Assembly: GCA_007449985.2 (NCBI GenBank)
Contig: VIIQ02000004.1
Span: forward strand, 310,001 to 374,000
DNA: 64,000 nt
From: Desmodesmus armatus
Taxonomy: Eukaryota; Chlorophyta; Chlorophyceae; Sphaeropleales; Scenedesmaceae
Direction: 5' to 3'
In this document: piece after piece, positions 36,301 to 63,360 of the stretch
Layout: each line of letters opens with the position of its first letter
Numbering within the stretch: the stretch's first letter is position 1
Notes under the pieces: model-generated
What the model was told of the DNA's origin: nothing
Databases searched by the model: none
Seen by the model: only the letters and a program-made list of their open reading frames with translations
Made by a program: the position numbers and the translations under genes

Positions 36301-38084
36301 ATGCACAAGATCAAGGAGAAGATCCAGGCACACCGTGCAGCAAAGCACGAGCAGGTAAGCTTCTGTACACATTTCTTGGCTGAGCCTGCCCACTCCATGC
36401 TGCAGTGCGGCACTGCACCCATGTCCTGACACCTTGCGTGCATGCATGACACGTGTCCCTGCCCCGCTCTGCGCGTACCTCTCCGCAGGACGTTACCACA
36501 GGCACCACAGGCGCTATGGTGGGCAGTGAGGCCATGCACCATCACCACCATGAGCACATTGAGGGCGAGGTCGTGACGGAGCGCCCAGTCGCTGTAGGCG
36601 TCGCTGAGGTGGGTTTGCTGTGCACCATATGGTGTGGATAATGGGTGGGGTGCCGCACCCTGTCTGTCAGCTTCTGATTGCGACATACTGCTGCAGCTGG
36701 TCCCAAATATTCGCTCACTCCTGTGTTCAATATGCATCACGCCGATGCATCGAGGGTGCGCACTGCATAATTCAAGTTCCATACCTTTGCAGTTGTCAAC
36801 TTGACAGTGCATGCGCCGCCAGCCTGACTGAGTGGGGCTGACAGCTTGTGACTGTCATGCATGCGGCATGCAGGCTCTGGCTGACTGATTTGCTGAACAA
36901 CAGCAACTTTTCACACCCCTTGCCTGCTCTTGCCACCCCATGCTCCCCACAGGTCCCTATCATGGTGACTGAGCAGGAGCGTGCGGTGCACGGCCACCAC
37001 CACGAGCACCACCACGAGCGCATGGGTGAGGAGGTGTGCGGCCAGAAGACCTTCACTGAGGTTGAGGACCGCCCAGTGGTGCGCGAGAGGGTGGAGCGCA
37101 TCGTGGAGCACAGGCCAGTGGAGAAGCAGGTGGGTTAGACACAATATCATCGCTTGCGCCAACACCTGCTGTATGTGCAGAGTTTTTGTGCCCGGCACGG
37201 TGACCAGGCGGTGCAGGAGCACCAAAATCACTTATTATCCCCGAGGGACAACTAGTACTTCTGCTTGTTGAGCATTTTGGTATTGTGCACCACTACTGAT
37301 TGCCAATCAAGGCTTGATAGAAGGCAAAAAGTGTGAACGCATGGCTCCTTCTAATTTGGCCTTCCTCTCCGCCTGCACATGTTGCTGCTGGTGCTGCTGG
37401 TGCTGCTGCTGCTGCTGCTTTCCTCCTCCTGCCTGCAGTATGTGGTTGAGACCAAGTTTGTGGTGAGCAGGAGATGGGTGTTGCTGGTGCTGAGATTGTT
37501 GACATCAAGGACAGGGTGGTGGATGTGGCCGCACCAGGACCCACCTGCCCAGTCAACACAGGTGAGCTTCCAAGCCTTTCCTCAAACTGGACGAAACAAG
37601 TGCGTTTGGCAGTGCGCAAAACTGCCAGGCTGCTGTGTCTGTACTGCTGCACGATTGGTAGCCGCTACTCGGTAGTACCTGAGACAGGGTTTGCCATGTT
37701 CAGCTGTTTACGGGTTTTGAATACTTGCCGACAGTGTTGCTGGCATCGTGATGTGCAAATGGGTGTCTGAGACAGGTTTGCTCTGTATCAGTGTAAACTC
37801 GCCAGTGATCCACAGGGTGCCGTAGGTACCTTGCTGGAAGCTGCAACTCTAGGACGGGACCCGTATGATACTGCGCTTGAGCTAATGTCAGCCTCAGGGA
37901 TCAACCTTTATGCTGCTTGAGCCTGTCCGACAGTCCCTCAAAACCTGCACTGCCTTCTTCTGTGACTGCAGGTGCTGTGATGAACGAGGTGATTCACGGC
38001 GTGACTGGCACCACACACACGGGTGTGGTTGACGCATCTGGCTACGACAGCACTGGCCGCACTGGCATTACCGATCGCCTGTGA
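36301..38084 (+). pseudogene. His-rich array protein, copy A, broken by a 1-bp deletion
   Basis: First of six head-to-tail paralogues. Exons 36301-36354, 36489-36608, 36953-37129, 37439-37561, 37972-38084. Exon 1 encodes MHKIKEKIQAHRAAKHEQ, exon 2 has a five-His run (MHHHHHEHIEGEVV) and ends PVAVGVAE, and exon 3 has HGHHHEHHHERMGEEVCGQK and RERVERIVEHRPVEKQ. Exon 4 is 123 bp instead of the 124 bp found in all other copies: GTGGGTGAGCAG of copy C is GTGGTGAGCAG here (about 37461). This shifts the frame across the conserved EIVDIKDRVVDVAA segment and desynchronises exon 5, which would otherwise end GYDSTGRTGITDRL. The splice sites are intact, so the loss looks recent, or is a sequencing or assembly error. 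The deletion creates a GTGAGC that resembles a donor. Function of the family is unknown. Confidence 0.8.
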
Positions 38085-38392
38085 TTCTTGTGTAGCATAC
38101 ATCAAGATGGCATCGTGTGCAGCGCACATCCACCAATAGCATGCTGTGAGGCCTGCTGTTAGGTAGCCTGGCTGTGTGCTGTGAGCCTTTGGTACAATGG
38201 TTGAAACATCTATCGCCAGTGGTGGTTGATGACCTGACGTGCTGCCATGTTGAGCATGCTTAACCTTTGTTCGCGTGCCATGCACCGGGTGCCCTAGGCA
38301 CAGCCAGCCTGCCAGTTTTGCATTGGCATACTATTTGTTACCTGTCAACCCCAGGCAAGGACAGCTGCTGCACCAACCAAAAGCTTTGGGGT

Positions 38393-39244
38393 TGTGCCAG
38401 GTATCAGGCTGCGGTGGCTGGGGCACGTCTTGCGTATGGGGGAGGAGCGTTACCCTCGACAGGTGCTCTTCTCACTTATGCACGACGCTGGTGCAGCACC
38501 GCGGGGGGCACCGCCTATGAGCTGGGGAAAATGTGTCACGAGGGATCTGCAGGCCTTGGGGCAGCCAACGAACATGCACGACCTTACGGATGCATGTGCA
38601 TTGCGCGGTTCTTGGCGGAGCATGCTCTACAGACTGACACACCCACGCGCTAATTGGGGAAGAAAATGTTACACGCAGACACATTCGCCACACATCAATG
38701 GCATTGCCTGCCAGGGTTGAACCGGTTGAAACACTAAGGTGGGGAAAAACCCCGATCCCCGTCAGTGGTTTGCACCACCTACACCAGATAGTAGCCTGAT
38801 TCAAAGCAAGACAGCAAAGGAGACTTCATTGACATCCTGAGGCAACACGACAACCTTGTACAGAAGTGGGAAGCAAACAGCTAGGATCCAACAGCTAGGA
38901 ATGGGGTGCCTTTCCGGCGACCACTCAATGCCACACGCTACAGCAGCAGGATGCGGCAGCGCGCTGAGACCCTGCCGTTCCAGGAAGCATGGTCTGCAAC
39001 TGGACCAGGGGTCATGTCCAACTGAGTTGCTTGTATAGTATATGTACAACATACTACCTATATTAGTTCTTTTTCTTGCGCTGTTGGCTTTGAGGGCCGT
39101 AACTGGCCCAGGCTTTCTAGTGCCCTAGGTCACTGGTCGCCTGGTGGTGTTTGCTTGTCTTGCACCAAGGTCGACTCGCTGCTAGCAGCATGCTGCGCGA
39201 TGAACCTGGCTGGAAACACGTGTAATGATGATGATGATGTGCCA
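38393..39244 (+). mobile_element. 5'-truncated LINE (non-LTR retrotransposon) 3' end
   Basis: The open frame 38400-38720 encodes the C-terminal tail typical of LINE reverse-transcriptase polyproteins (RLRWLGHVLRMGEERYPRQV, then KCVTRDLQALGQ and RLTHPRANWGRK). About 500 bp of 3' untranslated sequence follows, ending in TGTAATGATGATGATGATG, a microsatellite tail common in LINEs. A 7-bp TGTGCCA flanks it at 38393-38399 and 39238-39244 as a likely target-site duplication. The paralogous flank of copy B lacks the insertion. Confidence 0.85.
38400..38720 (+). pseudogene. LINE ORF2 C-terminal remnant
   Basis: About 107 codons, open to a TGA, carrying the post-RT C-terminal signature WLGHVLRM...PRQVLFSL...GKCVTRDLQALG. 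Everything 5' of this, including endonuclease and polymerase domains, is missing, as expected from incomplete target-primed reverse transcription. Not functional. Confidence 0.85.
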
Positions 39245-39959
39245 TGAGGCTGCACTGCACCTGTAGCTGTGTGACAGCAGGCGGCCCGCTGTTGAGTGGG
39301 CAGGCCTATATACTGTTCACTGTTAGCTTCCCATGCTTGGTGTCATGCTGCAACATGCATGGCAGCCTATAGCTGTTTGCCCGCTGTTGAGTTGGCAGGC
39401 CTAGGTATTCAGTGTTGGCTTTCTATGCTTGGTGTCACGCTGCAACATGCATGGCACCCTGCACACCCTGTGATGCTTTCAGGCTGCAATGCGCATGGTG
39501 CACTGCTGTTCTATTGTCATAGCTGCGTTGCAGCTTGGAAGTGCATGCAGCCAGGTGTCAAGTGGATATGAGGTTTGATGTAATGCATTGAGAAACTTAC
39601 TGTACCGCAACTCACATCAGGCTCAAACACAGTGACAACGTGCCAGCCCTAGATGCAGTGATAGCCTACACGGTGTAATAATCATGGCACTTATGGCAAG
39701 GTACAATCATTGTTGCCAACAATTTGCAAGCTTAGCAACCTATTACCATGGGGACAAGAATGTATTGAAAATCGTGTGAGTGTGTGAAAGCCTTCGGTTG
39801 AGCCTGTGCTGGTGATTTTGCACGCACGGCTCCTGCCACTGCACCAGAGCCATGTACTACATGGTACAGGCTGTAACATATATGACCCTTGCACAAATCA
39901 TCCTTATATAACCCTTGCACAAATCATCCGTGTGTAGTGCAAAGCAGTCATCGTGACCA
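39245..39959. other. 3' flank of copy A beyond the LINE, with short direct repeats
   Basis: No gene. The motif ctgcaacatgcatggca occurs near 39347 and 39441 and again in the 3' flank of copy B near 42894 and 42932. It is partly palindromic (ATGCAT). A second near-duplicate, cttgcacaaatcatcc, occurs twice around 39888-39930. Confidence 0.5.
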
Positions 39960-40860
39960 TAGTGACGATGGTATGTCACCCACACCCAACACAGCTGCAA
40001 TCCCCTGAACCGCCAACCGTTGACTGCTGAGCAGCCCCTGGGCCTGGTGTGATACTTTGAGGTTGCTTCAAGAAGTGCAAGAAATGTCTAGATGGTACTC
40101 ACTGTATGAGGCAACTGGTCACCTTTCTTGCCTCTCAACTGTAAGGGGCAGCACTGCTGTGGCACAGATCCCCAAAGAGGACGTCTCAGATGGTGCATGG
40201 ATCGCCCAGGGATGCTGGCCCAGTACTAGTTGAACTCTGCTGAGTGGTCTGTTGCTGTGGCCACCCAGTCAGAAACCGCTTGCTACTCAACCACTAAGTG
40301 CACACATGCCCAGGCCCACAGGTCCCTCTCGACCCTCCCTCGCCTTCCTCAACGTGGTGGTGCACCCGCTCATGAGCGGCAGTGCACACCATTGCAAAGT
40401 CAGCGAGGGCTGCTGCCGCCGTGCCTTTGGGATTTCAATCACACATGTTGAATCCTATCAACTCCTACAACTCTGAGCTCACTGCTGACGACCAGTCAAT
40501 TGGCAACTTTGTGCCAGATACACACAGCATGGCACAGCACGAGCAACTGCTGCCACAGCCCGGGGCAGACCCTCACATGCAAGGATGCGAACCCCGTGGC
40601 ACGAATTTGTGCTCAAGTAACTCGTGAACAATGATTTCCACCACATTTCGACGCGTCGTGACGTTCGAAGTCGTCACAGCCTGACGTCGACGTCATGGCT
40701 GCGTCACCATCGTGGGGCTGAATCAAGTATAAGTGTGAGTGTGCGTATGAGTGTGCACGCAAGCAGCGTATCCAGCGTACAGTTCTTTAAATTTGCCCTC
40801 CAGCAACAACGCGACTTCAATCCTAAAACCTTTGCAACCCGTTACCAAGACAGCAACAGC
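39960..40860 (+). repeat. Duplicated 5' flank, copy B version
   Basis: Collinear with 43325-44305 upstream of copy C. Shared stretches include gcagcccctgg(g/a)cct, caaccact(a/g)agt, atgcccaggcc(c/t)acaggtccct, and gcaactgctgccacagcccggggcagaccctc in pieces. It shows that B and C arose by duplication of a unit that included about 0.9 kb of upstream DNA. Confidence 0.75.
40659..40732 (+). promoter_or_regulatory. TGACG/CGTCA cluster and TATA-like box upstream of copy B
   Basis: TGACG at 40659 and 40682; CGTCA at 40672, 40691 and 40702. A TATAA lies at 40728-40732. The last half-site ends 159 bp before the ATG. Spacing is the same as in copy C except for a 9-bp difference inside the central TGACGTC(GACGTC)A. 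Confidence 0.65.
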
Positions 40861-40864
40861 AATC

Positions 40865-42463
40865 ATGCACAAGATCAAGGAGAAGATCCAGGCACACAAG
40901 GCAGCAAAGCACGAGCAGGTAAGCTCCATATCTACCGCACACTTGCCTGCCCCCTTGGCGGACCTGCTCGAAGAGGATCCATCCGCTGACACCCCTTTTT
41001 GCCCCTCCCTTACTGTCTGCTTTGCAGAATGTGACAGGCACTGGTTATCACGACAGTGGCATGGTTGGGGACCAGGGCATGCACCATCACCACCATGAGC
41101 GCGTTGAGGGCGAGGTTGTGGCAGAGCACCCAGTCGCTGTTGGTGTTGCTGAGGTGGGTGTGTTGCCGGACAGGGGGGTCGCCTGCCCTGCCGCAGGGGG
41201 GTCCCCTGCCCTGCCCAGCGGCTGGGCCACTATTGCCATACACACCCGTACTGCCATGCATGCTCAAGTGCAAGCAGGCCCTGCCACAGGCCTGTGGTTT
41301 TGGTTTACGTCAGTGGGTGTTGTGAAGTACTCTTTCTGCATGCATGCATCCTGGACGTTTTGTGCTCTGTGCAGTTATGTCAGGGTTTTGCTGTCACTGG
41401 CTTGTGCTGTTCAAGGCCTGGCTGCCAGTCCAGTGGGCCTGCATGTCGCTTACATATCATGTGCGTACCGCCTGCCTGCCACTTCTCCTTCCGTACAGAT
41501 CCCCGTGGTTATCACTGAGCAGGAGCGTGCGGTGCACGGCCACCACCACGAGCACCACCACGAGCGAATTGGTGAGGAGGTGTGCGGCCAGAAGACCTTC
41601 ACTGAGGTTGAGGACCACCCAGTGGTGCGCGAGAGGGTGGAGCGCATCGTGGAGCACAGGCCAGTGGAGAAGCAGGTGGGTGAGGGTGCCTGATCATCAG
41701 TTGACCCGGGCATAGTATGCATTTGCTGCCTGCACAGAGCTATTGGGTGCCATTTTTTGGCTAGGCTGCTTGATGTGTGTAGGAGCAGTACTCAGGGTTT
41801 CTAGCTGGCCCAGCAGTGCTGCTGGTTCTGCACCATGTCATGAAGTAGTCTTTGGGGTGCAGTTCGCGATTGAAGGCTTGATACACTGTAACAAGTACAT
41901 TAAATCATTGGCCACCTTGAATTGAACCATTTCCCTCTCTTCCTGCCTCCTGCTGCTTCCCTCCTGCCTGCAGTATGTGGTTGAGACCCGTTTTGTTGGT
42001 GAGCAGGAGATGGGTGTTGCTGGTGCTGAGATTGTTGACATCAAGGACAGGGTGGTGGACGTGGCCGCACCAGGACCCACCTGCCCAGTCAACACAGGTG
42101 AGCTTGTCAAGCTTTCTGTCAAGCTGGATGCCGAGTGCGGCGCACAGACAAGTTTGGCCGTGCGTATAAGTCCCAGGCTGTGTATTAGACACAGTAGTAC
42201 TGCTGCATGCTTGGCAATGGGCAGGGTCTTGATCAGCCATGCAGTGGTGAAGTGTAATGCTGCGTGAGACTGTCAGATGGTTCTCATGCGCAGTACATCG
42301 CCTATGCCTCTCACGACCCGCACGGCTTCTTGTTGTCTCTGTGACTGCAGGTGCTGTGATGAATGAGGTGATTGGCGGCGTGACTGGCACTACACACACG
42401 GGTGGTGTGGGAGCAACTGGCTACGACAGCACTGGCCGCACTGGCATCACTGACCGCCTGTGA
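40865..42463 (+). CDS. His-rich hydrophilic array protein, copy B
   Basis: Intact, 197 aa. Exons 40865-40918, 41028-41153, 41499-41675, 41974-42097, 42351-42463; phases 0, 0, 0 and 1. Exon 1 gives MHKIKEKIQAHKAAKHEQ, a short basic amphipathic start. Exon 2 has MHHHHHERVEGEVV and ends HPVAVGVAE. Exon 3 has ITEQERAVHGHHHEHHHERI, then EEVCGQKTFTEVED and RERVERIVEHRPVEKQ. Exon 4 is YVVETRFVGEQEMGVAGAE, then VDIKDRVVDVAAPGPTCPVN. Exon 5 ends STGRTGITDRL. No signal peptide or membrane segment is visible. Two cysteines (VCGQ, TCPV) and the His clusters are shared with most copies and suggest metal binding (inference). The Val/Glu/Arg alternation faintly recalls the YsnF/AvaK (DUF2382) pattern of stress proteins, but this is only a resemblance. 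Family and function not recognised. Confidence 0.85.
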
Positions 42464-43324
42464 ATGTAGCGGTCATCACCATGGCGTGGTGTACAGCGTA
42501 CATCCACCAGTAGCGTGCATTTAGGCTTGTTGCAGTCACAGTAGTACAGTTACAGTGTGGTACTTGCTACTGAGAGCCTGGCTGTGTGCTGTGACTCATG
42601 GCTGAGCCCGTCTTGAACCATGGTGGTTTAATTGGTTGATCACCTGTGCTGCCATGCTGAGCATGTTTGGGCTGTGTTGGTATTGAGGTATCCTAGCCAC
42701 AGCCAGCCTGCCAGGTACTAAGCCGTTTTGCACTAGTGTAGTATTTGTTACTTGCCAACCCCAGGCAAAGACAGAAGCTTTGGGGGTTGCTGTGGCATGC
42801 GGCAGCACATGTAATTATTTGCCCGCTGCTGAGCTTTGCAGGCCTGTATACTGTACATGTGTGCACATGTGCTTTCCAAGCCAGGTGCCATGCTGCAACA
42901 TGCATGGCAGGCTGCATACCTAGGCCTGCTTCCATGCTGCAACATGCATGGCGTGGCCTCGTTGTATTGTCAACACATGCACACTGCAGACTGTTGAGTC
43001 TGCAGTGTGCACCCTTGACCCGACTGTCATGTGGGAACTCAGTGCTTGGGTGTGGTGGGGTATGGTGTTTTTAATTTTGGAAACAATGCCATTTGGTGTA
43101 CGGGCTCACTGTTGCACTGCATGACACAAACGCAGGCATGACATGACATACGACTCAAGTCTGTACAATACTGAGGAAGCATGGGGCTCAACCAATATAG
43201 TGTAGAGACCCAAACCTTTCCTGGTCCACGTGCTTTTGCATGACAACCACCGGCCTCTGTGCCAGAGCAAATTAGCTGTTTCCACACAAGCACAGAGCAA
43301 CCATTTGTGCTACAGTACTTGTGC
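42464..43324. other. 3' flank of copy B (LINE-free counterpart of the copy A flank)
   Basis: Homologous to 38095-38395 plus 39245-39480: both contain gagcctggctgtgtgctgtga, cagccagcctgccag and ccccaggcaa(g/a)gacag. TGTAA at 42810-42814 is a candidate polyadenylation signal about 350 bp past the stop. No gene recognised. Confidence 0.5.
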
Positions 43325-44305
43325 AAAGCAGCGATACAATGGCAGTCAGCAGCACCCAACACAGTTGCGCCACAATCCGCTGCCCGGCCATGATGGCAGG
43401 GGATTGCAGTAAGTGCCAACAGCAGCCCCTGGACCTAGTGTGATGTCTGAAGGATGGTGCAAGCAGAGCGCGACAAGTCAAATTTACTGCCTGGGACGGC
43501 TGATCAACGGCGCCAATGTTGTGGCGCCGCACAAATGCCAGCGGCAGCACTCCTGTGGCAACAGTTCCCCACTGGGGACCTCAGGTGACAAGGGCTGCTC
43601 AGGCGGTGTGGACAGCCCAGGGACGCTGGGGCAGACTCTGTCAGATGATCTGTTGCTGTGGAAAATTTGACGGCTTGTTTTTCAACCACTGAGTACACTT
43701 ATGCACATATATGCCCAGGCCTACAGGTCCCTGCACCCCCTCCCTTCCCTGCCTGGTGGTGTGTCCTTGCAAGACCCTCAAGTAAGTCAAGAGTGGCAAT
43801 GCACTATTGCCATGATCTCTTCATGATCAGTCAGCGGTGGCCACCCATGGATGTTGCTAAATTACTCACACATGTTGCAACCTATAACGCCCACAACCCT
43901 GAAGTCGATTGCGGGTGGCCAACACCAAGTACTTTGCCAGTGTATGCACGGCGTGGCACAGCACAAGCAACTGCTGCCACAGCCCGGGGCAGACCCTCCA
44001 CATGACAGGGCCACGACCCCGTTGCACGAGTATTTTTGGTCCAGCATCTCATGAACAATGCACCCTTTCACTTCAACGTTTGCTTCTACCTTCCTCGAGG
44101 AAGGTACGAGTCGCAACGGTCGTGACGTTGTGTGTCGTCACAACCTGACGTCATGAGTGCGTCACCATTGTCGGGCTGTTTTGTGCACGTATATAGGTGC
44201 GCGCAACACTTGTGTTCAGCGCTTAACTCTCTCCCGATACACTTCAGCAACAACGCGACTTCAACTCGACATTCTTCAAACCCGTTACCAAGACAGCAAC
44301 AGCAA
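43325..44305 (+). repeat. Duplicated 5' flank, copy C version
   Basis: Partner of 39960-40860. Similarity runs up to exon 1, including the leader cccgttaccaagacagcaac found immediately before both ATGs. Numerous small indels distinguish the two. Confidence 0.75.
44123..44195 (+). promoter_or_regulatory. TGACG/CGTCA cluster with a full CRE and TATA box upstream of copy C
   Basis: TGACG at 44123, CGTCA at 44136, perfect palindrome TGACGTCA at 44146-44153, CGTCA at 44160, TATATA at 44190-44195. The last half-site ends 144 bp before the ATG. Confidence 0.7.
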
Positions 44306-44307
44306 CC

Positions 44308-46140
44308 ATGCAGAAGATCAAGGAGAAGATCCACGCACACAAGGAAAAGAAGCACGAGAAGGTACGCTCCATATGTACCGCACACTTGCCTGCCCCCTTG
44401 GCGGACTTGCTCGAAGAGTTGCCCTGACACCCCTTTTTGCGCCCCTTGATGTCTGCTTTGCAGGAAATGTATGGCACCACGGCTGGTGACCAGGGCATGC
44501 ACCATCACCACCACGAGCGCATGGAGGGCGACGTTGTGGCAGAGCACCCAGTCGCTGTTGGTGTCGCTGAGGTGGGTGTGCTGTCGACAGGGGATTCCGC
44601 TGGGCTGGGCTGGGCTGGGCTGGGCCACTGCTGACATATGGTCATGCATGTCAGTTACATATCCGTGCTGCCATGCATAACTCTGCATGCATGCGTCCTG
44701 GAAGTGTGTGGTTCGTGCAGTTATGTCATGGCTTCATGGTTGGGCTGTTGGCAACATGCATGATCTGAACATGCATGTTGAGTCAACATGGCATGTCAAT
44801 GGCTCGGCTGCCAGCCAGTCCAGTGGGCCAGCACATCACTTAAACTTGGCATGTTTGACTGCCTGCCTGCAACTTCTCCTTCCTTTACAGGTCCCCGTGT
44901 TGGTGACTGAGCAGGAGCGTGCGGTGCACGGCCACCACCACGAGCACCATGACCGCATTGGTGAGGAGGTGTGCGGCCAGAAGACCTTCACTGAGGTTGA
45001 GGACCGCCCCGTGGTGCGTGAGAGGGTGGAGCGCATCGTGGAGCACAGGCCAGTGGAGAAGCAGGTGGGGGTTGACACCAGACGAACTCTTTGAGGGCCA
45101 TTTGGTTGTGCAAGGAGTTGACAGTGCATGTCAGTTTGTGTTTGCAAGTGTACAATTCACTCTGGGCTCTGCTCACTGCGATTCTGATTGTACCAAATTC
45201 AACTTACATAGCAAATCATGACCCACAATTTTTTGTTGTTGGTAAGACAGCCAATTGATACGTCTCAGCTCAACTTCTGCACATCGACGGCTTCCACTCC
45301 TGCATGCATGTCAAGAAAAGGGCCCATCCGACACAACACTGCATTGTGCCATCCCTCTTGCTGATGTCCCCTTGTGCTGTGTGGCATATCTCATGCCGCC
45401 CTCCTCCTGCCTGCAGTATGTGGTTGAGACCAAGTTCGTGGGTGAGCAGGAGATGGGTGTTGCTGGTGCTGATATCGTCGACGTGAAGGAGAAGGTGGTG
45501 GACGTGGCTGCACCTGGACCCACCTGCCCAGTCAACACAGGTGAGCTTGGCCTGCCTCAATTTGAGGCTGAACTGCAGTCCAAATTCGCTCACGCGTGCA
45601 TTCACTGGGCCGCATCACCATTGCTGGCGCGCATGCAGCCTGGCAGTGCCACAGCGTGTGTGGCTGAATTGAGTTGGCTGCCTGCAGTCCAACTTGAAGA
45701 CTGCAGGCTTAAGGACTGTGTGAAAACAGAAAATCGAAATAATGCTCGTGCTGGCTACAAACCTGAAGTATGGCCGAAGGGCCCCTCAATGTAAAGTTGC
45801 CAGTCTATGGGCCTGGCAGGTCCGGAATCTGTTGACAGCTACTAGTTGTGTGTGACGTCAAACCGGTTGACTGCTCTGGTGTTATTTGATGCATTACACC
45901 AATGCTGCACCATGCTGGCAGCTGAGCCTTGCTGTCTGTGGAAGATGACGTCAAATCGCTGCATCTCAACTCGCGAACTGGACTGTCAATGGCAGTGGCT
46001 GTGGCATGTGGTCATGATCTGATGGATAGGAGGTAATGGGCTGAACAAATTGCGCTGCTGTTCTGCTTTTTATGCCTGCAGGTGATGTGATGGATAATGT
46101 GATCCATGGGGTGCAGGGCACATCCACCGACCGCGTGTGA
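44308..46140 (+). CDS. His-rich hydrophilic array protein, copy C
   Basis: Intact, 172 aa. Exons 44308-44361, 44464-44571, 44891-45064, 45417-45540, 46082-46140. Exon 1 gives MQKIKEKIHAHKEKKHEK. Exon 2 has MHHHHHERMEGDVV and ends HPVAVGVAE. Exon 3 has HGHHHEHHDRIGEEVCGQK. Exon 4 reads YVVETKFVGEQEMGVAGAD, then VDVKEKVVDVAAPGP. Exon 5 is much shorter than in A and B (DVMDNVIHGVQGTSTDRV) and lacks the GYDSTGRTG tail, so the C-terminus is the least constrained part. It shares its duplicated upstream region with copy B, 3443 bp away start to start. Exon 1 codons keep the frame of the family, and donors and acceptors match the other copies. Function unknown, as for the rest of the array. Confidence 0.85.
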
Positions 46141-50757: not shown

Positions 50758-50759
50758 GG

Positions 50760-50832
50760 TGACGCGTCATCAGTGTACGAGGTCGGTCACAGCTTCCCTG
50801 TGACGCAATACCTTGGCGCGCCAAGACAATAA
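50760..50832 (+). promoter_or_regulatory. Palindromic TGACGCGTCA and TGACG module upstream of copy D
   Basis: Perfect 10-bp palindrome TGACGCGTCA at 50760-50769, then TGACG at 50801 followed by caataccttggcgcgcc and caataaag. The last half-site ends 125 bp before the ATG. The TGACGCA...CTTGGCGCGC module is also present upstream of copy E, where it is split by a retrotransposon. Confidence 0.65.
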
Positions 50833-50929
50833 AGAGCCGAAGCTGCAGTGGCCAACCACTTGCGACATCCGCTGCAAACGTACTATTCTTCATCAAACCC
50901 TCTTACTTTCGTGAAACCAAAAAAACAAC

Positions 50930-52669
50930 ATGCAGAAAATCAAGGAGGTTCTCACCGGCACCCCAGCTCAGCCCGAGGTAGGGCTGACTGCTGTGTCTTG
51001 GTGCTCCTGATACATCACCCTGCTGCCCTGGACAGTGCTCACCCATCCCTTTTGTTTGCTGCTGCCTGCAGACCCACCACTCATCCCACCATGAGCACCA
51101 CACGGTCAACAGCAGCACACACTCCTCCCAGATGGGGGAGGTCGTGAGCGAGCACCCAGTTGCAGTGGGTGTCGCTGAGGTGAGTCAGCTCCACGTCATC
51201 CCCCACCTTGCATTTAAACTTGGTATGCCTCTACCATGCCTGACTGGCAGAGTATCTGGTCACCTGGGGCAATGCATCCCAGCACATCTACCCAGCCCTA
51301 GCCCACATGTACAGACTCTCTGCCGCAGAAACGTTGCATCAGACAAGCATTGCAAACGCAGAGAAGGCACCACTGCTTGTGCACTTGTACTGATCACTGA
51401 GTATGGCAGGTTGTAGTACACTAATGCATGCATATGCATGCGCATGCATTCAGTGCCTTCCAGGACCCCTGACTGACAAGCTCCCATTGCCAATGAGGGC
51501 CTCCAACACCCCCTGCATTGTCATGCCTTCAGGTCCCTGTGGTGGTGACTGAGCAGGAGCGTGTCAGCACCCACCAAAGGAAGGCAGAGGTGGAAGTGTG
51601 TGGCCAGAAGACCTTCACCGAGGTTGAGGACCGTCCCGTGGTCCATGAGAGGGTTGAGCGTATCATGGAGCACAGGCCAGTGGAGAAGCAGGTGGGTGGT
51701 GTTGCACAGATTCCCAATGCAACATCTGCAGTGTTCGTGCAGGTGCTGACAGCATGTATTTTTTTTTCTATTTTGTTTGTGTATTATATGCTGAGACCTG
51801 CATTGTGCTACTATGCAGCCCAGCTGTACACGGGTGGCAGGCTTTGTGCTGCTCCAGCAGGTGTCAAATGCATTGGCATAGCAACCCAACTGCTGCATGC
51901 ATTGGTGTATTTCTCACCCACTCCCGGCTGTCAAAGCGCAACCTGACAAGTCTTGCAGCAATTACACCATATTTTGAGTTGCGCAGTGCACGTGTACTGG
52001 TGTATAACGCCCTGGCATTGCGTCTCTCCCCATTCTGTCTCCAAAGTAACTGTGTGGTGCTGACCTGTGTCTGCTGTGCCGTGCCTCTGCTCCCTGCAGT
52101 ATGTGGTGGAGACCCGCTTCGTTGGGGAGCGTGAGCTGGGTTCCAACCACACTGAGATCGTGGACGTCAAGGAGCGCATTGTGGAGGTAGCACAGCCAGG
52201 ACCAACCTGCCCTGCCAACACAGGTAGGCCCTGACGCTGCATTGGCATACACTGGTGCTGTGCAGTTACAACAGGCCGCCTAGCACATTGCATTGAGGCA
52301 TCAGGACTGGGCGTCGTCTTGTAACCATCACAGTGTTCCAGCAGGCAGTATTTGCATCACCTTTTGCAGTATCATACTGATGTACTGCTTATTCAGCAGC
52401 AAGAGGCTGCCACTGTGTCAGATGTCACTTGCAGTCCTCAGCTGGGCCAATCGACACCTAATCCATTGTGCAGCAATTTGTGCTGCCAGCGTTTTCAAAA
52501 CGCTCAAGATTGCGGCAAGCACCACGTGCTGTACTACAGTATAGCCCAGTCTTGATTACTGGTAACACTTCTGTGCTGATGTGTGGCAGGTGCCATCATG
52601 GAGCAAGTCATCGGTGGTGTCACAGGAGGTGTCACAGGCCACTCACACATTGGCGGTGGCCGCATCTAA
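50930..52669 (+). CDS. His-rich array protein, copy D (exon 3 His cluster lost)
   Basis: Intact, 172 aa, the most divergent copy. Exons 50930-50977, 51072-51179, 51533-51691, 52100-52223, 52590-52669. Exon 1 gives MQKIKEVLTGTPAQPE. Exon 2 is Ser/His-rich (THHSSHHEHHTVNSSTHSSQ) and ends SEHPVAVGVAE. Exon 3 keeps TEQERV and EVCGQKTFTEVEDRPVV, but the HGHHHEHH block is replaced by STHQRKAEV. Exon 4 keeps the 124-bp length and YVVETRFVGE, with ELGSNHTEIVDVKERIVEVA instead of the usual core. Exon 5 reads AIMEQVIGGVTGGVTGHSHI. The exon 3 His cluster is therefore dispensable, or its role has moved to exon 2, while both cysteines (VCGQ, TCPA) persist. Older duplication than A-C by divergence. Function unknown. 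Confidence 0.82.
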
Positions 52670-53759: not shown

Positions 53760-53764
53760 CTCTT

Positions 53765-54020
53765 TGACACGTGCCCTTACTAGGACACGGGTGAACCAGG
53801 GTAGAATACTGTCCGGGGCTTGGGGAACAGCTATTAGCTGGACCTGCCAACGTAGAAACCTATGACCACTGATGACACATAGGATGTCACCATAACAGGC
53901 CGTCCTACTAGGACTCCAAGGTTCCATCAAAGCCCCTGTTACCAACAGTATACGTCGTTCTTACACCAACAGGCTGGACCAGGGCGTCCCCTTGGCCTCT
54001 GTGCACGTATCCACGTGACA
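53765..54020 (-). repeat. 3' LTR (left in window)
   Basis: 256 bp, TG...CA. Identical to the right LTR except for two substitutions (ctgccaacg/ctgccgacg and cttacacc/cttatacc). Confidence 0.95.
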
Positions 54021-54372
54021 ACTCTCCCCACCCAGCTTCCAACGTCCTCGTTGGTAACCAGCAAATTTACTCCATCTGTAAGGCAGACGGTGCGCGCAGC
54101 AGGTACCGGTAAACCACGCTAGGGGGTGATGCCCGTCTCAACACCAGTGCAGGGATGGCTCAATCCCTCACCTGCGGACACTGCATTGCAACTTGTCTTG
54201 CAACCAGCATCAGTCCACTGGGGTACAGTACTTTACTGCTGTGGCCACGTAGTGTCATACAACACTCCTCAGGGCTTACTCCAATGCAAACCAGATCATA
54301 CACTGTCTTGCTACAAGCTGCCAGACCAGCGCTCAAGCCGCGCAGGGCGCTCACACCACAGGGTGGTGGGCT

Positions 54373-55860
54373 TCAACCTGCTCGACGGGCACATGCAGCC
54401 TGATATGCCTGCAGCACAGCAGGGCAATCCCGAAGCAACTGCTTCTCTGGTACCCATGCAATGTACTCTGGACCAAGGTCGGCGTACTTCACTAAGTACG
54501 AGGTTATAACCCGTTTCTTCCGACCTCCTGCACGCCTCTCTCGGTGTGCCAGTATCGTTTCCACTTGATAACCCAGCTCGCCGGTCAAATCGATGACCTC
54601 CGGTAATGCCGGGTACCGACCGTCACTGCGGTACGGCTTCAAGAGCGAGACGTCGAATACATCATGCATCTTCAGCTTAGCTAGTAGCTTAAGCTTGTAC
54701 GCAACTTCTCCGATGCGTTGCATGACTTTGAAGGGGCCGACATATCTGGGCAGAAGCTTCCTAGTCCCAGGATGTTTCAGTGTGAGGTTCTTTGTGAGCT
54801 GCAGCCAGCAGCTGTTTAGCCTCCCTTACAGCAGCCTGCACTCCCAGCGAGAACTGCTTTGCGGCCGGTACTGTGCTGTCATGTTTAGCAGACACAGGTG
54901 TCAGCGGATGCTGCCCGTAGTTCAGGAAGAAGGGGGTGTTACCCACCGACTCCTGGTACGAGTTGTTGATGGCAAACTCCACCATAGCCAGGTGTGTGTC
55001 CCAGTCGTCCATCCTGGGTTGCACAAAGTGGCGCAGCATTTCCTCAACCACCCGGTTGACCCTCTCAGTCTGACCATCAGTCTGAGGGTGGAAGGCTGTA
55101 GACATGGCTTGCTTGATGCCCAGCAACTTGCTGATCTCCTTGAACAGGTCACTAGTGAACCTAGGATCCCTGTCAGAGAGTAAGGTCTTAGGCACTCCGT
55201 GTGACCTAAAGACACTGTTCACAAACATGTTGGCAACTTCCAACGCCCCATCTGTCTCATGGCAGGGGACAATTTGGACCATCTTGCTCAGTTTGTCAAC
55301 AAAAATCGCGATGGCGTCATTCCCCTCCTCCGTGGTGGGAAGGCCCGTAATCAGGTCCATGGAGACCATCTCCCAACGTCTGCCAGGAATGGGTAGTGGC
55401 TGCAATAGGCCGGCTGGGGCCTGTGTCGATGGTTTGTTGCGCTGACAAGGCACGCACGTGCCCACAAAGCGCTCAACATCGGCTCGCATCGCTGGCCACC
55501 AGTACGTACGCAATAACAAGCGGAACGTCTTGTGCATACCCACATGGCCAGCAAACGGATGATCGTGGCATTCCTGCATACGACGCTTGCGTAACTGGGG
55601 TGCATCAGGCACCACCAGTACGTCTGTGCCGTCCAGCAAGCGCTTCCAGTACAAGCCGTGCCGCAGCTGCAACTCAGCTGTATTGGCAGAGTCGGCAAAC
55701 CACTCATCATTTTTGTAACCCTCTTGAAACTCGTTCAGGAACGCTTCATCAGCTGCATCGGTTTCAATTGGGTCTGGCGTCGGTTCCCGCGCAGGGACAT
55801 CGCCTGTCGAGCCGGTCTTAGAGGTCTCGGATGACCCTGACCAGGCACCTCCGCTACCAA
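54373..55860 (-). pseudogene. Retroelement pol remnant: integrase and chromodomain
   Basis: Open on the - strand from near the right LTR. The N-terminal zinc-binding part of integrase has HDHPFAGHVGMHKTF and CVPCQRNK. The catalytic core shows the three acidic positions in MDLITGLP, SDRDPRFTS and TDGQTERVNRVVEE. The frame then ends at 54761 after EAKQLLAAAHKE. The next frame (54373-54723) carries the chromodomain-like tail (MHDVFDVSLLKPY; SYLVKYADLGPEYIAWVPE). The segment that normally joins them is missing, so an internal deletion also shifted the frame. Reverse transcriptase and RNase H are absent. Non-autonomous remnant. Confidence 0.9.
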
Positions 55861-55862
55861 AA

Positions 55863-56118
55863 TGACACGTGCCCTTACTAGGACACGGGTGAACCAGGGT
55901 AGAATACTGTCCGGGGCTTGGGGAACAGCTATTAGCTGGACCTGCCGACGTAGAAACCTATGACCACTGATGACACATAGGATGTCACCATAACAGGCCG
56001 TCCTACTAGGACTCCAAGGTTCCATCAAAGCCCCTGTTACCAACAGTATACGTCGTTCTTATACCAACAGGCTGGACCAGGGCGTCCCCTTGGCCTCTGT
56101 GCACGTATCCACGTGACA
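55863..56118 (-). repeat. 5' LTR (right in window)
   Basis: 256 bp, TG...CA, followed by the target-site duplication CTCTT at 56119-56123. It lies 280 bp upstream of the copy E ATG, and its transcription direction is away from copy E. Confidence 0.95.
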
Positions 56119-56123
56119 CTCTT

Positions 56124-56236
56124 GGCGCGCGATACTCGCGCGCGGCATTCTTAGTGCTGCTCGCAAAAGCCATACAAACTGACCCAATAAAGTTGATGGT
56201 TTTGCCCACCGTCAGGCGTTACGATGACTGACGTCA
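56124..56236 (+). promoter_or_regulatory. Proximal promoter of copy E with a full CRE
   Basis: Begins with ggcgcgcgatactcgcgcgcgg directly after the retroelement, then ccaataaag (56182-56190), CGTCA at 56210 and the perfect palindrome TGACGTCA at 56229-56236, 163 bp before the ATG. The upstream TGACGCATACTCTT half of the module lies on the other side of the insertion at 53749. Confidence 0.6.
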
Positions 56237-56398
56237 AAAAGGGGTTTGACATCACACATGTCATCTGCACACCTGCTGCCCCACTGGGGCCAAGTTCGTT
56301 AAACAGGCAGCCAACTTGAAACACTGTCAGACAACCCCAGCTTGAAAATAAATCTCAAACACCAAGTTACTCTGCCCAGCATCTCGTAGAGTCACAGC

Positions 56399-59114
56399 AT
56401 GCAGAAGATCAAGAGTGCCGTCAAGGGCCACCGCCACCATGGAAATGAGGACCGCCACCATGGGCATGTGAGCGGATTCGCTGCTTTTAATTTGCCGTTG
56501 TGTCATGACACTGTTTGTATGTGACAGACACTGACATGGGGTAAAACATGATTGCTTCACTGGCCAAAGCATCAATTACCAACAAAATGCAGCGGCGCCC
56601 ACCGTGCAGGCTGCCTGAGTTTTTCTCCCTGTCCGCTGCTGGCACCCCTCTGCAGGTTGTTGAGGACCAACCTGTGGCACAAGTTGTGCCTGGCAGTGTG
56701 CCAGTGACTGGTACCTACTCAAAGACAGAGGCTGAGTACCAGGCAGCTATGGGCAATGCTGGTGGTGTGCGTGCCACAGAGGTGGGTTCAAACCACTGGC
56801 AGTGGTGCATTGCCCACGTGGACATGTGGCATCATGCGGCCGCCGCCTTGCTGTGTAGGCATGCCATGGACAGAATTATGCGATGTTTGGACAAGGGCAT
56901 ATGCCACGCTGGCGGCAAACGTGGCTTTTGAACCCCCAAGCTCAAAGACCTGGAGTACTGGGTGCAATGCAGCAGCTTGCAGGGATTATGTCCAGACAGG
57001 ATCGATCTCCTAGTCCAGTCCAGGACTACTCAGTAGTAGCGGCTCTAGTCCTCTGTCTCAGATCTGAGAGGCACATGTCACAAACACGGCACACATTCAG
57101 CAATTGCAACTGACCCATTGCATGCACCCTTTCTGCCTGCTGCCTCTGGCGCAGACCACCACCAGCACTGGCAGTGGCACCACCATTGGCACCGGTGGTA
57201 TCAGCAGTGCTGCTGGGGCTATCACAGGAGAGGTGGTGGCAGAGCGCCCTGTTGCTGTTGGTGTGGCTGAGGTGAGGAATGCCTTGTGCCAGGGTTGACC
57301 TTCCTGCCTGCTCATATCTGCTTAGTTGTAATGGGGAGGGGCAGCCTGCCGAGCAGGCGCAGTGTGAAGCAGGCACAGTATGCAGCAGAGAGTGTCGCAG
57401 TGCAACCAAACGTTGCGCATACGGTCTCATGAGCTCAACAGGCGCTGTCAGCATAGGCTATGCTCTTGGCAGGACAAGTGTGGCTTGGGACCTTCAAGCT
57501 TGTGATGCTGGCTTCAGGCAGGACCTGCACAAGTGCACAAACACATCAACAACATTGCAAGCCTTCCCCCCTCCTTTGCTCCGCCCCTCTCACTACAGGT
57601 CCCTGTGAAGGTGACTGAGCAGACGCGTGTGGTGGGCACCACCCATGAGCACCATGAGCATCACCACGCCCACCACCATGCCGGCACTGCCAGTGGCACT
57701 GGGGGCATTGCCAAACAGGTGGAGCAGGTGTGCGGCCAAATGACCTTCACACAGATTGAGGACCGCCCGGTGATCAGGGAGCGGGTGGAGCGCATCGTGG
57801 AGCACAGGGCAGTGGAGAAGCAGGTGGGTGTGGGAACTGCGAGGCATGTGGACATGTGGGCCAGCTGCAAGCGCAAGGGCAGTCCATCACGCTGACCGCT
57901 TCACGAGGCCCTGAAGTTCAGGGGGCCCAAGCCTCCAGGGTGGGCAGCACACGCTGGATGCTTTGGGTACTACCCACGGTACGGTACGGTACAGAGCTTG
58001 ACCCATGCTGAGACTAGGGCCGAAAAGCAAAGCACATGGCAAGGGAGTGTTACGAAGGTCTAAGAAGAAAAAACTCTAAGAAGCTCAGGCTACTAGCCGC
58101 TAGTATGAGGGTCACGCCGGTCTTACTACTACTAGCGGGTAGAACCCGCTGCAAAAGCTAAGGACGTGGCAAAGGTTGTTGTGCAGAAGGTGCCTCCAGC
58201 ACCTCAGATGGTTGAATTTCAACGAGAGGCTGTGACTGGTAGCGGCTTATGCTACCTGACCGTCAGGTGCAGCGGTCGCACTGCTTATAACTATGTGAGC
58301 AGTCACTGCTGGGATGGTCCCAGTGACAGGGGCTTTCTGTGACAAGGGCTGGCTTTGTTTGCAGCAGGGGCAGTGTTGAACAAGACCTCCTGGGTCAGCT
58401 TTAATACCACCCTTAGCGTCCTCTCACGTGCCCCACTGGTTCACTGGCCTTTTCAGTGCCGCCGTTTGTGATTTGCTGCTGCTGCTGCCTCCCTCCTGCC
58501 TGCAGTATGTGGTTGAGACCCGCTTTGTGGGTGAGCAGGAGATGGATGTTGCTGGTGCTGAGATTGTTGACATCAAGGACAGGGTGGTGGACGTGGCTGC
58601 ACCAGGACCCACCTGCCCAGTCAACACAGGTAGGTTGCAACAAGTGTCCTGCCACCTGGCAAGCAGCCATATGTCATTGGACCAGCTTGGGGCTGTTTGG
58701 CAGCATCCATATCAAGGCTACCAAGTCACTTTCTCTAGGCTAACACGTCACTTTCGCATCATGCCTATTGCAGCAGACGCACAAAGGGCTGCAGAAGGGT
58801 GCCGGCAGCTGTTAGCACTGCAGACTGTAGGACAGTAGTTGCAACTTTCCAATTGGAAAGTAACCATCACTGGTGAGCCTCAAGCACTCAGTCATGATAT
58901 AGTCTGTCATACAGGCCTTCCCATCCAGGGTTGCCTTCTAACAGTAGTGAACCCCGATGATGCCCAGGTACCCAGGCCCCTGGACTCGGCAATGCTGCTG
59001 CAGTTCTGATTTTGTGTCTGTGTGTTCACCATTGCTGTCTGGGTTGCAGGTGCCATCATGAGCGAAGTTGTGGAAGGGATCAGCCACACCACAGGGACAG
59101 CAGGAAGGGTGTGA
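56399..59114 (+). CDS. His-rich array protein, copy E, with an extra exon
   Basis: Intact, 241 aa, the longest copy. Exons 56399-56467, 56656-56781, 57155-57271, 57599-57823, 58506-58629, 59050-59114. Exon 1 gives MQKIKSAVKGHRHHGNEDRH. Exon 2 (42 codons; VVEDQPVAQVVPGSVPVTGT) has no counterpart in the other copies, although phase 0 on both sides lets it be inserted or skipped freely. Exon 3 is Thr/Gly-rich and ends ERPVAVGVAE. Exon 4 has HEHHEHHHAHHHAG, a Gly-rich linker, EQVCGQMTFTQIED and RERVERIVEHRAVEKQ. Exon 5 is the invariant 124-bp unit (YVVETRFVGEQEMDVAGAE). Exon 6 ends ISHTTGTAGRV. A retrotransposon interrupts its promoter, so expression may differ from its sisters. Function unknown. 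Confidence 0.83.
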
Positions 59115-61312
59115 AGTGATGTGATTTGACAAGGTCAAGCAGCAAGCTAGGCAGCAGCCTGTGGCAGTTGTGCAGGTGCCCTTGCTGTTGTGGTTTCTTG
59201 TGTGTGCACCACATTGAGCCCCTGGGTAGTTGTGAGTTGCTTGGTGCTTGTATAGTGCCTTCAGTCTGGATGTCCTGCTGCAGCAGTGTGGCGCGATTGG
59301 ACGGGGGCGGGGCGACGGGGAGTGCACAGCCTGGGGGGGTGGTGGCAGTGCGGCAGGGCAGCAGCAGAGGGGGAGAGGGGTGCTACGCTGCCTTCTGCTG
59401 AGGGGTCTCAGGTCTGGCTGGCACTTGGGTCCACTCCCTGACCCTGGTCCTTCCTCAAGGGTCTAGTGTGGGCACTTTGAGACAGGAACAACTGCTTTGG
59501 TGTTTGGGAGTGTCTCTGCACTCAGGGAAACAGGCTGGTGTGTGAGAAGCACTCAAGTCAGGTACAGGCTGGCACTAGCACAGCACAGCAGGATCGAGAC
59601 AGTAGAAGGCCGAGGCCGGTATCAAGGTAACCAGCAACATTCAAGGCTTGGAAGGAGTCTCAATGTTACAAAAGGACGTGTCGGTGCACGTTGGCAACTC
59701 GTTGGCAGATTGAAGTCTGTTCAGACTCTGCTTGGAAAAGCAGCGAACGGCCCGCCTTATATAGGCCAGGGCGACAGTTTCCGCTAGCTTCCAAAACAAC
59801 CAAACGGCATGCAGTATGCAGCAGACGACTCCCAAAGTAGCTGTAATCACTGCGCGGGGCCACAACAGCCCGGGCAAGGCGAAGCCAAGATTTTCGCCTC
59901 ATGTCTCACTTCCGCAGAACTTCAAGTATAGTAGGGAATACGTCGTCAGGCAACAACTATATGCAGGGTGGGACCTGCGGTCCCAGAAGAACGTGCAACC
60001 ATAAAATGACATGTTGCAACCGAGAAAGTCGGTTGGAACATATGCAACTACACAACAATACATATGACAGGCGACGACAGGTGGACAAATGCATGCAAGA
60101 CCAGACCCGAGTGTGACGCTCGTAGTGTCGTGCTGGTGCAGTGCCACACTTACTGGCCTCAATGCAAAGTATCGACCATCGTCAACAACGCTAAATGCAC
60201 GTATGAGTCCAAAACAGCTCAGCACCGGAGCGGACAGGCTCGTGCTTGAGCTTTGTTCAAGTCAACAGTGGCAGTGACAGCAGCACCTCAGGTGCTGCAC
60301 CTGCAGGTGCCAAGTCACCTGTGACAGGAAACCCAGGACCACACAGCTGCTTCTGGCAGCCAATTCTATTAATTCATGATCTCAAGTAGTTCAATTTGGC
60401 AGCTTGCAGCTGCCTCATGAGCTTTTAGCCCAATCAGACCGGGGTCGGGGAACAGTACAACAGTAGCAGACCAGCACCCGCAGTCCTGCCAGAGGGCGCG
60501 CATGCCCATCAAGCATGCAATCTACCAGCAGCAACAGACATGTAGAGAACAACCACAGCGTGCACTTGGAACAAAAGGACACCCCTAGTCAACGTGAAGG
60601 CGCCACAGCTTGCCACAGCAGTAGACACTGGTCCCAGCCGGTGGGTGCTGCAGGGCTGGCAGAGAACGAGGCCTGGTGATGGCATCAATCAAGGGGTGCC
60701 CAGTATGCATGTTGATCACTGTGCGCACCCGTGTGGTCTGTCGGAGCCTGCCGTTGCAAAGCACACAGCATCCTTATCGATCACAAGGCGTGTGGAGGCA
60801 CGTTGTGGGACAGGCACCAGTTACCACCGCAGTGTACTCACAGGTGTGGCTAGCACTCATGTTAGTACCACACAGTACTGCGTTGCATGTTGTGCACTGG
60901 AGCATCCAAAGGGCGATACGCTTGCCAGCTGGTCACGTTGACGGGTTGTATACATCATATTCATCACACAGTGTAATTCAATGTTGGGTGCTCGGCAGTT
61001 GTCCCAGTTGTTGCAACAGCAGAGAAGCCATGGTTGCATGCAAGTATCACCATGCACGGTGGGTGCATCATTGACTTGGCCAGATAGTAGCTTGATTGAG
61101 AGGAACTGAGCTTCCGGTGCAATGTAACTATATGTTGACTGTTTTTGTTGCTGTTGTGGTCGTCAATCGCAAATGCAACTGCACCATGATCAAGTGGCGA
61201 TCATGCCATGACGACAGGCTACAAAGGCCTCGTCCTGCGCCGTTAATCATTCTTGATTTGGAAAGTTCGATGACAACACAGAACCTGTCAGACCGGGATG
61301 ATTCTTGTCTTC
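59115..61312. other. Intergenic between copies E and F
   Basis: No gene recognised. Nested palindromes made of CACCTG/CAGGTG lie at 60283-60325 (gcacctcaggtgc, tgcacctgcaggtgc). Confidence 0.4.
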
Positions 61313-61384
61313 CGTCAGGTCCTGATGACGGAGTGTGACTCACTGTGACGCGCGACAGACGCGTCAGGTTCTACATATATAGCG
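61313..61384 (+). promoter_or_regulatory. TGACG/CGTCA cluster and TATA box upstream of copy F
   Basis: CGTCA at 61313, TGACG at 61326 and 61346, CGTCA at 61362, then catatata at ~61374-61381. The last half-site ends 120 bp before the ATG. The segment gtgacgcgcgacagacgcgtcagg resembles the copy D palindrome with a spacer. Confidence 0.65.
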
Positions 61385-61485
61385 CGAAGGAATTAATGCA
61401 GCGACAGTATTTCGACAGACTCGGCACTCTCAAAGACATCATAATCTTCGACTCAACTACCTTTCTCACCGCAAAGACAGACAAC

Positions 61486-63360
61486 ATGCAGAAGATCAAG
61501 AACGCCATCAAGGGTCACCGCCACGGAGACCGCACTGACGAGTACGATGTAAGTTGCGTTAATTGTTTGCTCGTTTTGACCTTTAGGCCCTGTTGAAGGG
61601 TTCGCAGCTCGCGACATGGCGGTTGAATACACCTGCTGACCATCCTCTGCACTCCTGCTTGCATTGTTTCCTGCTGCAGACCACCACTGGCGCAACCACC
61701 GGCTATGGTGGAACCAGTGGCGCTGCAACTGGCTACGGATCCGAGACAGTGGGCCACCACGGCACTGCCGCTACTGGCATGACCGGCGGCGAGGTGGTGG
61801 GAGAGCACCCCGTTGCTGTTGGCGTGGCTGAGGTGTGCATTGTACCTCTAAGATCTCTTTGAGCAAGTACTACATGCTTTGCTGTTACTTGCATGGACGC
61901 TTGGATGCATGGATGCGTGCCTGCATTCCAGACTCATAGCACGTGTACCAGAAACCATGACGAAAGTGCTACTGTACAAGGCATATCCATGCAGGCAGGC
62001 TCATTCCTCCAGCTGGACCCCAGCTGCCTTGCAGACAGCCCACTTGTGTTGTGTGCATGCATGGATACTACATCCACCCAGGCTGCTGTTGTTGCCCTAA
62101 ATAGCCTGCATTCATGCAGTCCTGTACTAAAGCCCTCATGCATTGCCCTGCCCTGCCTCCTGCTGCCTCTGTGCAGGTCCCGGTTGTGGTGACTGAGCAG
62201 GAGCGTGTGGCTCACGGCCACCACCATGAGCACCATGAGCACCATGAGCACCATGAGCACCATGAGCACCATGACCGCATTGGTGAGGAGGTGTGCGGCC
62301 AGAAGACCTTTACTGAGCTTGAGGACCGCCCGGTGATGCGCGAGAGGGTGGAGCGTATTGTGGAGCACAGGCCGGTGGAGAAGCAGGTAGGGAAAGGTCT
62401 GCAAAAGTTACAGGCCCTGTACTGTGCTTGTTTTGCTGTAGCTCAAACCGCTCTTTCTGGAGTGCTGGTGGTACTCTAGGTTACTTGGTTGCATGACATG
62501 AACATGCGGCTGGCATAATCAGAGTGTTGACATACAAGCTTGGGTCAAGTAGCCTCCTCAGGAGGCTCAGGCCTGGCCCCAGCTTGCTTGTGGCAAAGGT
62601 GTGCCTGTGGCAAACAGCCGGGTCTCTGCATTGTTTTGACTCACCAATGTTGTCGCCACAAGCTGTGGCCATGGTGTTGATACCTGGCCAACAACAGTGA
62701 TCATAAATGCCTTGCTACAACCTTGCTGACGTGCTGCTCCTCCTGTCCTGTGTTACCCGCCCTCCCCTCGTGCAGTATGTGGTGGAGACCCGCTTTGTGG
62801 GTGAGAAGGAGATGGGTGTTGCTGGTGCTGAGATCGTCGACGTGAAGGACAGGGTGGTGGACGTGGCTGCCCCAGGCCCCACCTGCCCAGTCAACACAGG
62901 TGAGCTCCAAGGTGGTTGAAAACCACGTCAGTGTGTTTTTGCAAGTTGATGTGCGGCATATGTCCTGGTTGTGCAAGGCTGGTAAGTGTTATTTTGTGTT
63001 TGTGATCGTCAGCCTGACCCGGGGGCTATCGATTTGCATTGTACATGGGTGTTGTAGCAAATGACATTGTCAGTAATTCTCTGCTTGGGAGGTGCCAGCA
63101 AGTGCACAAGCCTTGTCAAAGATTTATGCAAGAACCTGCTTCCCTGTTCCAAGCCACGTTCATGCATCCCTGAACCGTCACAAAGGTAGCCAGCTCCGTA
63201 TCACACAACCATCATGCGATCCTGCATGTCTGTGCCCGCAGGTGCTGTGATGAACGAGGTGATCCAGGGTGTGCAGGGCACAGGCACCACAGGCATGATG
63301 GGCACCCATGGCCACCACCACCACACTGGTGGCCACACCGGCGCCACTGACCGCCTGTGA
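61486..63360 (+). CDS. His-rich array protein, copy F, with expanded Glu-His-His repeats
   Basis: Intact, 222 aa. Exons 61486-61548, 61680-61832, 62177-62386, 62776-62899, 63242-63360. Exon 1 gives MQKIKNAIKGHRHGDRTDEY. Exon 2 is Gly/Thr/Ala-rich (TTTGATTGYGGTSGAATGYG) and ends EHPVAVGVAE. Exon 3 carries a GAGCACCAT trinucleotide-pair repeat giving repeated EHH units, then DRIGEEVCGQKTFTELED and RERVERIVEHRPVEKQ. Exon 4 is the 124-bp unit. Exon 5 is His/Gly-rich (THGHHHHTGGHTGATDRL) and ends DRL as in copies A and B. The exon 3 repeat is a likely site of length variation. Cysteines in VCGQ and TCPV are kept. Function unknown; metal or pH buffering by His is one possibility. Confidence 0.86.

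Follow-up and report, generated by a model that had tools for sequence, protein, structure and literature searches.

A tandem array of predicted COR1-type genes in the green alga Desmodesmus armatus

Relationship of the array to Chlorella COR1

Liu and colleagues reportedly described, in 2011, two novel late embryogenesis abundant (LEA) proteins, ccor1 and ccor2, in Chlorella vulgaris. Among the matches listed by our own searches, the COR1 name is carried by three 'cold-regulated 1' proteins of C. sorokiniana and by the 'Cold-regulated protein 1' of C. vulgaris (UniProt G0YUY2). Other protectants are known from Chlorella: HIC6 and HIC12, which are hardening-induced group 3 LEA proteins, protect lactate dehydrogenase from freezing (PMC3749462), and the Antarctic strain NJ-7 is rich in cryoprotective LEA proteins (PMC7874021); the passages that report this make no mention of COR1. 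Among the literature matches listed, no title or abstract opening concerned the COR1 family, and the words "cold-regulated" and "late embryogenesis" are absent from the excerpt of PMC7955037. Here we describe a 64,000-bp window of the 115.8-Mb genome of Desmodesmus armatus (C3:310001-374000; positions without a contig name are those of the window), in which six plus-strand genes lie head to tail at 36301-63360. They are numbered copies 1 to 6 in order, and a whole-genome search placed a seventh copy beyond the window.

Judged from sequence, the products of the array are COR1-type proteins, a family of core green algae already named in Chlorella; an earlier note on this DNA had called the family unrecognised, which the Chlorella names and a profile match contradict. 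When translated exons 1-4 of copy 6 served as the query, a protein search returned 68 matches at E ≤ 1; profile searches returned 170 and 255 at E ≤ 10, the best 120 of each being listed. All listed matches at E ≤ 1e-3 that carry an organism name, which most matches do not, are core chlorophytes; the genera named among the matches listed are Scenedesmus, Tetradesmus, Raphidocelis, Monoraphidium, Chlorella, Micractinium, Parachlorella, Auxenochlorella, Trebouxia and Coccomyxa. When 17 Sphaeropleales-type relatives were compared with 13 of Trebouxiophyceae type by hhalign, the probability was 99.9, with E 5.7e-35 over 101 columns; both profile sets come from one alignment, and several members lack a species name, but an E value of this size leaves chance little room despite the common source. 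Two intron-free relatives align with copy 6 exons 1-4 over the whole query: P0001, from a 1182-bp contig, at 73% identity, and P0003, a complete open reading frame from a transcript assembly, at 49%. Because an intron-free relative from another source spans all of these exons at E 1.1e-69, chance resemblance is excluded.

The array proteins and Chlorella COR1 (G0YUY2 and the C. sorokiniana proteins) are similar in size and composition and have in common an M[QE]K[IV]K start and, in most, the core EDRPVVKExVExIxEHRPVEKEFVVETRxTG, in which their identity is concentrated. The array copies carry this core as EDRPVx[KR]ExVExxxEHRPVEKxxVVETRxxG, with single changes in copy 2 (EDH), copy 4 (VHE) and copy 5 (HRA); the N-terminus is M[HQ]KIK in all seven copies, and K[IV]K lies near the start of most aligned relatives. 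They differ in that G0YUY2 lacks the two Cys residues and the PGPxCP end of the array proteins, which in turn have His runs and a tail encoded by a fifth exon. The array-like plan of N-terminus, core and tail recurs in Tetradesmus obliquus OEZ86_005326, Scenedesmus sp. NREL 46B-D3 COO60DRAFT_78021 and COO60DRAFT_78118, and Raphidocelis Rsub_11835, each annotated as a hypothetical protein. Three of these four have VCG...PGPxCP (COO60DRAFT_78118 lacks the VCG stretch), but all four sit on tree branches separate from the array and have other residues, for example PSATGATVID, where most array copies read VAGA[ED]IVD.

No Pfam model fits the COR1 family: a search of the kind that the earlier note had proposed for exons 3-4, made with exons 1-4 of copies 2 and 6, gave no match above cut-off in Pfam or NCBIfam. 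That note's only lead had been a weak resemblance to the bacterial YsnF/AvaK (DUF2382) family, of which the array would be a eukaryotic branch. Short strings rich in V, E, R and P, such as RPV and VVE, do look alike by eye, but this likeness is superficial. The DUF2382 model (PF09557) had no match in the D. armatus genome while being positive in two of 14 control genomes, and when 66 relatives were scanned at E ≤ 1, the 14 Pfam families that matched at least one of them did not include DUF2382. Three algal profiles compared by hhalign with 44 bacterial DUF2382-type proteins gave probabilities of 1.0, 0.4 and 0.35, the bacterial set having been identified by a DUF2382 consensus alone (49 loci, five excluded by a length limit of 80-450 aa); a search of plasmids with that consensus found no proteins. 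With genome search, Pfam scan and profile comparison all negative at the sensitivity reached, we reject this identity and give it practically no credence.

Protein anatomy and proposed role

The intact copies (2-7) encode proteins of 172-222 aa that are rich in Gly (8.7-14.9%) and in charged residues and hydrophilic (grand average of hydropathy, GRAVY, -0.37 to -0.70), with no Trp and two Cys each. Behind the conserved M[QH]KIK N-terminus and a variable linker lies a core module of about 65-75 residues, running from VCG to PGPxCP and bracketed by the two Cys. Within it we found a twofold 14-residue repeat, EDRPVVxERVERIx / EHRPVEKxYVVETR, whose pattern fits 146 of the 175 proteins retrieved; in these the two units agree on average at 5.4 of 14 positions (range 3-8; one match is inherent in the search pattern), as against 1.6 in shuffled sequence. 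Of 66 aligned relatives, 59 have both Cys (62 have the first and 61 the second), in keeping with the earlier description of two conserved Cys.

The proteins are probably disordered for the most part, in line with the partial disorder that had been proposed along with their small size and hydrophilicity. Structure prediction, which the earlier note had suggested, was run with AlphaFold2 on two relatives of the array copies and showed no confident fold (mean predicted local distance difference test, pLDDT, 54.3 and 53.7; predicted template modelling score 0.17 and 0.14); the core of the first relative reached pLDDT 71-82, yet had no strand or helix there. A search of solved structures gave one match, at E 0.8, which we take as chance. 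In its hydrophilic composition and predicted lack of a stable fold, the family resembles LEA-like disordered protectants.

We think it fairly likely, from the Chlorella name, the composition and the two structure models, that the array proteins are LEA-like protectants of this kind. COR1-type proteins would accumulate in cold or other water-deficit stress and would shield proteins or membranes from aggregation, and copy number might add dose or condition-specific isoforms. Stress induction and protective activity are predictions from sequence, and so is any part that the Cys and His residues might play in redox or metal chemistry. A number of observations weigh against this assignment. The cold induction of the C. 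vulgaris bearer of the COR1 name (P0129) is taken from its name and from general background, and that protein lacks both Cys and is distant, with an end branch of 1.62. No Pfam LEA model matched copies 2 and 6, and among the 66 relatives there were two weak dehydrin matches (best E 0.047) and no other LEA family in Pfam. Hydrophilins have more than 6% Gly and a hydrophilicity index above 1; the array proteins pass the former value, but minus GRAVY is only 0.37-0.70. Finally, the 500 bp that precede each of the seven copies contain no excess of C-repeat/dehydration-responsive (CRT/DRE), abscisic acid-responsive (ABRE) or heat shock (HSE) elements, TATA-like sites alone being above expectation (4 vs 0.57). 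As for HIC6 and HIC12, the array proteins are likened to them by description, not by sequence, and no group 3 LEA Pfam model matches the array family.

The earlier note had offered stress protection or metal binding. While the first is made likely by the name of the Chlorella relatives, we consider the second quite improbable. A metal-binding or metal-buffering protein would use its His runs and two Cys to bind Zn, Ni or Cu, the array raising dose in metal stress. Each intact copy does have 13-26 His, with runs of the HHHEHHHE type, and copy 6 weakly matches ZrgA and several metal transporters on composition (E 0.037-0.23, none reaching its cut-off). Run length varies between copies, however, and runs of three or more occur in five of ten Sphaeropleales-type but none of 15 Trebouxiophyceae-type relatives (four and one of which, respectively, lack a species name), the latter containing 0.8-6.5% His with no run longer than two. 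Because of this distribution, metal binding is unlikely to be the shared function. The motif TGCRCNC is not enriched upstream (9 found vs 8.5 expected), nor are copper or other metal elements in excess in these upstream regions. The array copies are His-rich as first described, but the His runs are lineage-restricted and lie outside the conserved core.

Some relatives carry the module fused to other domains. A C2 domain accompanies it in 14 of the best 120 of 170 profile matches and in 12 of the best 120 of 255 (checked in three proteins), and in P0175, a metagenomic protein of 257 aa, a glutaredoxin domain is followed by a COR1-like module. It could be proposed from these fusions, and from the Cys pair in 59 of 66 relatives, that COR1 is a membrane- or redox-linked adaptor: a portable disordered segment sited by its partner (C2 at membranes, glutaredoxin at thiols), with the array proteins as soluble partners. 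We regard this as unlikely, as copies 2 and 6 have no C2 domain in exons 1-4, the matches of a C2-fusion query in the D. armatus genome were to the module only, and the glutaredoxin fusion comes from one contig of 1406 bp and has a module that lacks the Cys pair.

Organisation of the array and its surroundings

The array begins exactly at the ATG of copy 1 and ends exactly at the stop of copy 6. As had been noted from the sequence, the six genes have the same orientation and share exon order and intron phases: each has five exons and GT-AG introns, with phases 0,0,0,1 in copies 2-6. Copy 1 deviates at its last intron only, because one base is missing from its exon 4, at about 37462, in or beside a G run; for the same reason its exon 5 is out of frame. 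The deletion could be genuine, or it could stem from the assembly. Each gene closes with a short fifth exon that encodes the tail and stop, following the pattern [AD][IV]M..V[IV].G.... The fixed motifs quoted in the earlier note were found at six places on the plus strand, with exceptions: copy 5 has TEQTR for TEQER, copy 4 has HERVERIM instead of RERVERI, and FVGE is lost by the frame change in copy 1.

The frameshifted copy 1 (36301-38084) has exons at 36301-36354, 36489-36608, 36953-37129, 37439-37561 and 37972-38084, the end of the last being placed using the conserved frame. Copy 2 (40865-42463; 197 aa) is intact, with exons at 40865-40918, 41028-41153, 41499-41675, 41974-42097 and 42351-42463, as is copy 3 (44308-46140; 172 aa), with exons at 44308-44361, 44464-44571, 44891-45064, 45417-45540 and 46082-46140. 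Copy 4 (50930-52669; 172 aa), intact and the most diverged, has exons at 50930-50977, 51072-51179, 51533-51691, 52100-52223 and 52590-52669. Between it and copy 5 lies an open frame for a retroelement integrase with Integrase_H2C2 and rve domains (54761-55957, minus strand), flanked by a repeat of at least 123 bp at 98% identity (53903-54025 and 56001-56122) that may extend further. Copy 5 (56399-59114; 199 aa; intact) has exons at 56399-56467, 57155-57271, 57599-57823, 58506-58629 and 59050-59114, and copy 6 (61486-63360; 222 aa; intact), which has the longest HHE run, at 61486-61548, 61680-61832, 62177-62386, 62776-62899 and 63242-63360.

Although the six copies first counted are those inside the window, the total is at least seven: an intact copy 7 lies at C3:378362-380227, 4.4 kb past the window end. 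Searching exon by exon, we also found a diverged relative with two core modules on the minus strand of another contig (about 555.4-558.5 kb, within C552:552000-561000); these genome-wide counts are lower bounds.

Elsewhere in the window, a minus-strand open frame of 1253 aa (30350-34111) has a high content of Pro, Ala, Lys and Gln and contains repeats of the EPKAQPQ type; its region is high in G+C, with a strong AT skew at 32-34 kb. A tandem array at 3064-3614 consists of 4.1 copies of a 135-bp unit with 97% matches.

Selection and history of the copies

Of the 15 pairs that the six intact copies form, 14 have a ratio of nonsynonymous to synonymous substitution rates (dN/dS) of 0.10-0.38 in the core; outside the core the ratio is 0.38-0.73, on poorer alignment. 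The core is thus under purifying selection in these 14 pairs and the remainder diverges more, a pattern that does not bear out the suggestion that local amplification points to dosage selection. Weighing against the proposed protectant role are (i) the remaining pair, copies 2 and 7, with a core dN/dS of 0.71 at a dS of 0.06, and (ii) the homogenised exon 4 (discussed below), which depresses dS. The frameshift in copy 1 and the fast divergence of the linkers might instead indicate a repeat array in decay, in which few genes still work. We judge this very improbable, since six of seven copies are intact, all splice sites are retained even though introns differ in similarity from one shuffle by no more than 0.10 in 73 of 84 comparisons, and all but one of the 15 pairs have a low core dN/dS.

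In a tree of 37 proteins, several forks of which are weak, copy 4 falls outside a group (support 99/93) that unites the other five intact copies with P0001 and P0002. Over its best exons, P0001 reaches at most 88% against the D. armatus genome and therefore comes from another alga; the copy 4 lineage seems older than the split from that alga.

Exon 4 has a history of its own. It is 94-98% identical among copies 1, 2, 5 and 7 (37439-37561, 41974-42097, 58506-58629 and exon 4 of copy 7), while introns 3 and 4 of the same pairs are 42-57% identical, vs 38-50% when shuffled (one shuffle each). Copies 2 and 7 use the same codon at all 39 conserved residues compared in exon 4, vs 52% expected from codon usage, and sharing is 93% for copies 2 and 5 and 95% for copies 5 and 7; in exon 5 the corresponding values are 67% (15 codons, copies 2 and 7), 12% (eight, copies 2 and 5) and 17% (six, copies 5 and 7). 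This suggests that exon 4 was homogenised by short-tract gene conversion. A general codon constraint on the exon is unlikely, as copy 4 has only 62-66% of exon 4 codons in common with the other intact copies, vs 51-53% expected. Conversion by way of cDNA was also considered; the identity between copies 2 and 7 continues 13 bases into intron 4, which points to a short DNA tract or to selection instead.

Tandem copies appear not to be confined to D. armatus. Locus tags that follow one another on a single contig in Chlorella ohadii (COHA_004000/004001), C. vulgaris (D9Q98_000905/000906), Parachlorella (N2152v2_011015/011016) and Micractinium (ABPG77_003940-003942), together with four relatives on contigs of equal size (186266 bp), suggest that COR1 relatives are tandem in other algae too, as read from tags and contig sizes rather than maps. 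Tentatively, COR1 might be an unregistered, disordered stress family that core green algae share, its basis being a 14-residue motif present twice between two Cys. Having undergone tandem amplification in several lineages and been joined to membrane (C2) and thiol (glutaredoxin) domains, it would work as a portable, redox-tunable protection module distinct from known LEA groups. We hold this wider proposal to be possible, though doubtful.

The assignment gives "hypothetical" proteins of Tetradesmus, Scenedesmus, Raphidocelis, Monoraphidium and other algae a named counterpart in Chlorella COR1. The C2 domains fused to the module in relatives suggest a testable place of action. In D. armatus itself, the seven linked copies constitute a natural series for the study of dose, division of labour and exon-limited homogenisation.

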